A program made the position numbers and the translations under genes. A model generated the notes under the pieces. That model was not told the origin of the DNA, searched no databases, and saw only the letters and a list, made by a program, of their open reading frames with translations. A DNA stretch of 22,144 nt from Candidatus Auribacterota bacterium (GTDB lineage Bacteria > Auribacterota > JAFGBW01): contig JAFGBW010000043.1 in assembly GCA_016932965.1 (NCBI GenBank), positions 1 through 22,144 of the forward strand, in the 5' to 3' direction. Below are positions 21,243-22,144 of the stretch, one piece after another; the stretch's first letter is position 1, and every line of letters starts with the position of its first letter.

Positions 21243-21271
21243 TTGACTTATTCTCCATGAATCTTTATAAA
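21243..21271 (+). promoter_or_regulatory. pyr operon promoter
   Basis: TTGACT (21243-21248), a 17-base spacer, then TATAAA (21266-21271): close to the sigma70 consensus. It predicts a transcript starting near 21278, giving a leader of about 95 bases before pyrR that contains the PyrR-binding hairpin. Confidence 0.7.
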
Positions 21272-21296
21272 AGTCAAAAATTTAAGAAATGGTCAT

Positions 21297-21330
21297 CTTT
21301 TAATTTTAGTCCTGTGAGGCTAAAAAGGAG
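21297..21330 (+). promoter_or_regulatory. PyrR-binding RNA hairpin
   Basis: TTTTAGTCCTGTGAGGCTAA at 21304-21323 matches the conserved PyrR binding-loop core (AGUCC-N-GUGAGGCU). UUUUAG (21304-21309) pairs with CUAAAA (21320-21325), with an upper CC/GG pair and a UGUGA loop. Below an AA bulge, CUUUU (21297-21301) can pair with AGGAG (21326-21330), which hides a ribosome-binding site. No intrinsic terminator lies between this and pyrR, so control is probably on translation. Confidence 0.75.
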
Positions 21331-21334
21331 TCCT

Positions 21335-21376
21335 ATGCGAGCCAAGAACGCACCTTATTCGGGGGGACACTCATGA
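21335..21376 (+). CDS. Possible pyr leader peptide (13 codons)
   Basis: An ATG at 21335 stands 4 bases after AAGGAG (21325-21330) and reads [13 protein letters not shown] before TGA at 21374-21376, which overlaps the pyrR start as ATGA. Ribosomes finishing it would be placed on the pyrR start. The AAGGAG is in the 3' strand of the PyrR hairpin. pyrR also has its own GGGGGGA inside this ORF. It may be regulatory only. Chance occurrence is possible because the ORF is so short. Confidence 0.4.
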   Translation: MRAKNAPYSGGHS

Positions 21377-21909
21377 ATGAGTCCCTCCTTTTGAACGCCA
21401 AGGATATCGACCGCATTCTCACGCGGATGGCACATGAAATCACGGAGAAGTCTTCTTTCAATCCTGATAAAACCGCTCTGATCGGGATCAGAACCCGCGG
21501 AATATACCTGGCTGAACGTCTGAAGAAAAAAATCCACGCCATAGAAAATCATCTTTTAGATTTAGGCTCATTGGACATTTCCTTCCACCGGGACGATCTG
21601 GATCAAAGAACCAGTCTTCCTGTTGTCGGAGTCACGGAAATCACGTTCAATATCACGGGCAGGGAAATCATCCTGGTGGACGATGTGTTGTACACAGGCA
21701 GAACCGTCAGGGCGGCACTTGATGAACTCATGGATTTTGGAAGGCCGGACCGTATCTTGCTGGCTGTCTTAATCGACCGCGGCCACAGGGAACTCCCTAT
21801 CCGGCCGGATTTTGTCGGAAAAAACATCCCCACTCACGAACAGGATTCCATCCGGCTGCACCTTTCTGAATCCGATGGCAAAGACGAGGTGATCCTGCAA
21901 TGTCCCTGA
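21373..21909 (+). CDS. pyrR: PyrR: pyr operon regulator / uracil phosphoribosyltransferase
   Basis: 178 residues. PyrR proteins bind a hairpin in pyr mRNA when UMP or UTP is plentiful, and many also convert uracil plus PRPP to UMP. The type I phosphoribosyltransferase fold is clear: [14 protein letters not shown] near residue 38, the basic-acidic [10 protein letters not shown], and the PRPP loop [13 protein letters not shown] at 99-111, then [20 protein letters not shown] and the C-terminal flap. The ATG at 21373 has GGGGGGA 6 bases upstream and overlaps the leader ORF stop. A PyrR-type hairpin is in its own leader, so autoregulation is expected. Its end overlaps pyrB by 10 bases. Confidence 0.96.
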
Positions 21910-22144
21910 CCCATTGGAGAAGAAAAGATCTGATCGCAATCAAAGACCTAACTGTCGAAGAAATACAGATGGTTCTCGATACTGCCACCGCCTATAAGGA
22001 GCTGGTATTGCGCCCGATAAAAAAAGTGCCTCCCCTGAGGGGTAAAACCGTGGCGCTCCTTTTCTGTGAACCTTCCACACGCACCCGTACCTCCTTTGAG
22101 CTCGCCGCCAAACGTCTCAGTGCAGACATCATCAATATCAGTCC
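21900..22144 (+). CDS. pyrB: Aspartate carbamoyltransferase catalytic subunit, 5' part
   Basis: Condenses carbamoyl phosphate with aspartate in the first committed step of pyrimidine synthesis. Only the first 81 residues lie in the window. They begin [17 protein letters not shown], then the [20 protein letters not shown] segment, the carbamoyl-phosphate-binding STRTRTSFE signature of the family, and [13 protein letters not shown]. The ATG at 21900 lies inside the end of pyrR (10-base overlap), with GAGGTGA 7 bases upstream, so translation is coupled. Ornithine carbamoyltransferase shares the STRTR motif, but the pyrR linkage and the [11 protein letters not shown]-type continuation support PyrB. 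Confidence 0.93.

Follow-up and report, generated by a model that had tools for sequence, protein, structure and literature searches.

Control of pyr genes by PyrR is best known from the Bacillota, where its output is an RNA antiterminator. In Escherichia coli pyrBI, it is a ribosome on a leader open reading frame (ORF) that disrupts a terminator located before the pyr genes; this system senses UTP through the pausing of RNA polymerase and uses no RNA-binding protein. For the pyr leader of Thermus ZO5, Van de Casteele and colleagues reportedly proposed in 1997 that PyrR controls the translation of a leader peptide and that the translating ribosome, rather than an antiterminator, prevents the terminator. 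In Bacillus, PyrR bound to UMP stabilises its RNA hairpin (PMC7430163; PMC6296669), while PyrR-dependent translational repression is attributed to Mycobacterium smegmatis in a passage of a 2026 review (Fields and Switzer 2007, cited in PMC13328217) that presents PyrR as a Gram-positive regulator.

The window analysed here, a stretch of 22,144 nucleotides from a Candidatus Auribacterota bacterium (contig JAFGBW010000043.1), carries a pyr leader close to its end, with all features on the forward strand. Judged from its sequence, this leader represents a compact version of a leader-peptide attenuator that is widespread, and is not of the mycobacterial type; its novelty would lie in a terminator merged with the start of pyrR, within a kind of leader-peptide control that has already been proposed. 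The pyrR gene (21373-21909) encodes a full-length regulator/uracil phosphoribosyltransferase of 178 residues, which scores 227.7 bits with NCBIfam NF003549 (cutoff 138) and aligns to PyrR 1non (E = 6e-53) with both the conserved PRPP motif and a second conserved PyrR motif of 10 residues in place. It is followed by the 5' part of pyrB (21900-22144, where the contig ends), a partial match to aspartate carbamoyltransferase models; as the start of pyrB overlaps the end of pyrR by 10 nt (21900-21909), it may also be translationally coupled. Upstream, a predicted sigma-70-type promoter, TTGACT-N17-TATAAA (10/12), occupies 21243-21271, the end of its -10 box preceding the PyrR site by 22 nt; a scan demanding T at the last -10 position misses it. 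In many relatives, boxes resembling TTGACA-N16-18-TATAAT lie ahead of the PyrR site at a distance of 4-15 nt. With the promoter predicted upstream of the site, the transcript should include the PyrR loop; a transcript beginning downstream of the loop, which would have spoken against the original prediction, is thus disfavoured.

The putative PyrR-binding hairpin spans 21294-21330 and presents an ARUCCNGNGAGGYU loop on a two-part stem; the loop motif AGTCCTGTGAGGCT is matched exactly at 21308-21321, where the letters are ARTCCNGNGAGGYT. Searched with R1, a covariance model of 37 positions, the window yields a single clear match (39.1 bits, E 1.7e-6; runner-up 14.2 bits), a score that is partly obtained by construction since the window site is among the 26 leaders used for training. 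In the whole genome, R1 matches the site upstream of pyrR alone, and three further exact occurrences of the 14-mer were dismissed for this reason. The Rfam model RF00515, which is independent of R1, aligns with 40.9 bits (E 2.6e-4) without reaching its gathering score of 54 bits, so a scan of the window at this threshold returns no match; four of the relatives exceed it. Strict regular expressions for the loop miss many relatives. Covariation supports the structure of the site, as 8 of its 11 stem pairs have changed on both sides. The 3' strand of the hairpin contains AAGGAG (21325-21330), the Shine-Dalgarno sequence (SD) of a 13-codon leader ORF that starts with ATG at 21335 and stops with TGA at 21374-21376, the stop and the pyrR ATG at 21373 overlapping as ATGA. 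The PyrR loop before pyrR, the AAGGAG within its 3' strand and the short ORF overlapping pyrR had all been put forward in the original prediction and are borne out; recurrence across many lineages further supports the overlap of loop and SD, the leader ORF and the coupling of this ORF to pyrR. The SD is separated from the ATG by 4 nt, a short spacing, and its AGG is mostly paired in the predicted fold even without PyrR; with the SD largely paired already, PyrR would act by stabilising the hairpin. From the conserved site and protein, we infer that the stabilisation by PyrR and UMP described in Bacillus would carry over to this hairpin.

The PyrR site is present in 12 of the 43-44 genomes of the phylum (that of the window and 11 others), always as a single copy and always at pyrR. 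In two other genomes of the same order (L002 and L003), the leader is longer and is composed of the loop, the SD, a leader ORF and a terminator with 8-9 T located inside the ORF; further genera of the phylum share this layout, as do loci whose titles read Nitrospirae, Omnitrophota, Krumholzibacteriota and Nitrospinia. An SD within the PyrR site, associated with a leader ORF running into a terminator hairpin (terminator-like in the window), is shared by the window and 22 relatives. The terminators of these 22 leaders start at a median of +30.5 from the PyrR site (IQR 29-33), and the window hairpin at +30. The leader ORF is open as far as the hairpin in 22/22 leaders with a terminator, whereas the two remaining frames are open that far in 14 and 13 (Fisher p = 3e-4). 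The ORF stops inside the terminator in seven leaders, beyond it in 15 and before it in none; the 22 leaders do not represent 22 independent events, as they include close relatives (L006/L009, L045/L046 and L068/L075). An ATGA overlap between the leader stop and the pyrR start also occurs in five relatives (L005, L041, L050, L054 and L058).

An SD-like string proves little by itself, since the PyrR sites of Bacillota likewise end in AAGG. By comparison, an ATG placed at +3 to +10 after an SD-bearing site is found in 26 of 32 cases outside the Bacillota control set, where about four are expected, versus 6 of 42 SD-bearing sites in the Bacillota, for which chance gives ~7/47 over all sites (p = 6e-9). 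The Bacillota attenuator (RF00515; PMC7430163, PMC6296669) has the same PyrR site and the same terminator distance (median +31 in both), and it differs by its use of an RNA antiterminator and by the lack of a leader ORF. Antiterminator pairing has a median z of -0.58 in the leader-ORF group against -1.53 in Bacillota (p = 1e-4); the value for L003, whose second hairpin was taken as the terminator, is biased towards an antiterminator. In the window, a search by duplex energy gives no antiterminator signal (z +0.17). Classical attenuation of the Bacillus type, in which PyrR site, RNA antiterminator and terminator would do the work and the leader ORF would be incidental, is therefore very unlikely: the RF00515 alignment does span both helices, but the antiterminator signal is absent from the window and from the group, and a start codon follows the SD far more often than in the Bacillota.

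In the window, the counterpart of the relatives' terminators coincides with the start of pyrR. A terminator-like hairpin, GGGGGGAC-loop-GTCCCTCC followed by TTTT (21361-21392), has a loop that contains the start codon of pyrR; written as RNA, the hairpin reads GGGGGGAC ACUCAUGAAUGA GUCCCUCC, then UUUU. The hairpin proper (21361-21388) has 8 pairs and a G+C-rich stem with the T tract immediately after it, lies at +30 to +58 from the PyrR site, which is the place of the terminators in relatives, and aligns to the second helix of the RF00515 model. Its stability exceeds that of 197 of 200 shuffles (z -2.3), and the local energy at the pyrR start, -15.2 kcal/mol, is the lowest of the 18 gene starts in the window, the next being -10.8. 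An equally stable hairpin arises in 2.8% (140/5000) of synonymous recodings of the first pyrR codons; a stability beyond the constraint imposed by the codons is thus suggestive, not overwhelming. The original prediction had seen neither a terminator nor a T-run here, which this hairpin and its TTTT contradict, and had favoured translational control over an attenuator, a view not supported as stated since relatives, including both genomes of the same order, carry a T-rich terminator within the leader ORF at the position of the hairpin. By the standard of a Bacillus-type intrinsic terminator, an 8-pair hairpin is present at the expected place and its U-run is just UUUU, versus 7-9 T in most relatives; termination may hence be weak or absent in the window. 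The merged form is drawn from a single sequence, that of one genome of the family.

The reading that we favour, with a probability of roughly 60%, is that PyrR gates the translation of the leader, that the translating ribosome takes the place of an antiterminator and that the hairpin lies over the start of pyrR. While the parts, their distances, their recurrence and the lack of an antiterminator in the group emerge from sequence comparison, we infer the binding of PyrR, the action of the ribosome and the balance between termination and a hidden start. When UMP/UTP is plentiful, PyrR bound to 21294-21330 would lock AAGGAG and leave the 13-codon ORF untranslated; the 21361-21388 hairpin and its UUUU would then form unopposed over the pyrR start region, and either stop transcription, probably weakly given four U, or block the initiation of pyrR. 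With PyrR free, a ribosome would initiate at 21335, enter the hairpin and open it, halt at the UGA inside the hairpin loop and hand over to the overlapping AUG of pyrR, pyrB following pyrR through its own overlap. The ribosome would be here the counterpart of the Bacillus RNA antiterminator; as in pyrBI, a ribosome on a leader ORF would disrupt a terminator before pyr genes, with the difference that pyrBI does so without an RNA-binding protein. A close likeness is the leader reportedly proposed for Thermus ZO5, in which translation of a PyrR-controlled leader peptide prevents the terminator; the window departs from it by a hairpin merged with the pyrR start, a short U-run and a leader stop overlapping the pyrR AUG. 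Because terminator and start are merged, the same hairpin could both stop transcription and hide the pyrR start. That this single hairpin serves as attenuator terminator and as a lock on the start codon, with one PyrR-gated leader ribosome opening both and thereby placing the transcription and the translation of pyrR under the same structure, is a doubtful extension.

The short U-run, together with the weak lower stem of the PyrR hairpin in which U-G pairs occur, would also suit a decayed, vestigial attenuator that leaves pyrR-pyrB constitutive; a fully conserved loop motif and an intact promoter, SD, ORF and overlap make such decay highly improbable. The four U are also compatible with a purely translational repression, in which PyrR would block the ribosome-binding site of the leader and silence pyrR via coupling, the hairpin never terminating and merely making pyrR depend on the upstream ribosome. 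A coupled form devoid of terminator does exist: in compact leaders (L037, L044, L047-L049, L126, L129-L131) from Nitrospinota metagenome-assembled genomes (MAGs) and from loci of the phylum of a Nitrospinales MAG, the loop, the SD and a short ORF are followed by an ATGA on the pyrR start, the PyrR site being 34-65 nt from pyrR with no T-run longer than four. However, these Nitrospinota leaders show no hairpin above shuffles at the pyrR start, so a start-covering hairpin was dismissed as a general trait of compact leaders, while the window has one at the terminator position of its relatives (+30), with a T tract after its G+C-rich stem. Purely translational repression is rather unlikely, and less likely than the gating of an attenuator by a leader ribosome.

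In a second set of Nitrospinota leaders (L132, L133, L135-L143), the PyrR loop is kept and AAGATC mostly stands where AAGGAG is expected; most of them lack a start codon where one is usually found, and T-runs are few between the loop and pyrR. As both are lost in most of these leaders, the SD and the leader ORF go together. Relatives that keep the loop without the leader ORF had been named as grounds for giving up the original prediction; such relatives do occur, in L004 and in this Nitrospinota group, but the latter has lost the SD too and is therefore consistent with the model instead of speaking against it. L004 itself (genome G015) has the loop, AAGGAG and a terminator, with no ATG, GTG or TTG after the SD; its leader ORF may be decayed or may begin with a rare start codon.

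The likeness to mycobacterial repression, on which the original prediction had drawn, is that the PyrR loop carries a ribosome-binding site, AAGGAG, in its 3' strand; it ends with the gene that is served. In the mycobacterial relative Tsukamurella (L196), pyrR itself has the AAGGAGG of the loop as its SD, whereas in the window AAGGAG serves the leader ORF at 21335, with pyrR at 21373. A direct repression in which the loop would act on the initiation of pyrR, without any leader peptide, has the Tsukamurella arrangement as its precedent; in the window, the SD lies 4 nt before the leader ATG and 42 nt before the start of pyrR, which has a G-run of its own upstream, and such repression is scarcely credible here.

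Taken with the relatives, these leaders suggest that AAGG, in the lower stem of the site, offers a ready-made SD from which outputs other than the RNA antiterminator can arise: leader-peptide attenuation in many lineages, direct repression in Actinobacteria and ATGA-coupled compact forms in the window and in Nitrospinota. The proposal reported for a single Thermus species would become testable across phyla, and the window provides a specific example in which terminator and start codon have merged. Some loci have peculiarities of their own. In L008, the ORF starting with ATG has 3 codons, and an overlapping frame starting with GTG runs for 28 codons through the terminator. Diverged pyrR genes (42-50% identity) from other families of the phylum (L013-L024) have no PyrR loop detectable upstream. 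Lastly, L039 bears the title 'Chlamydiae bacterium' and shares its PyrR match with G016:C29 from the phylum of the window; the title is probably misassigned.
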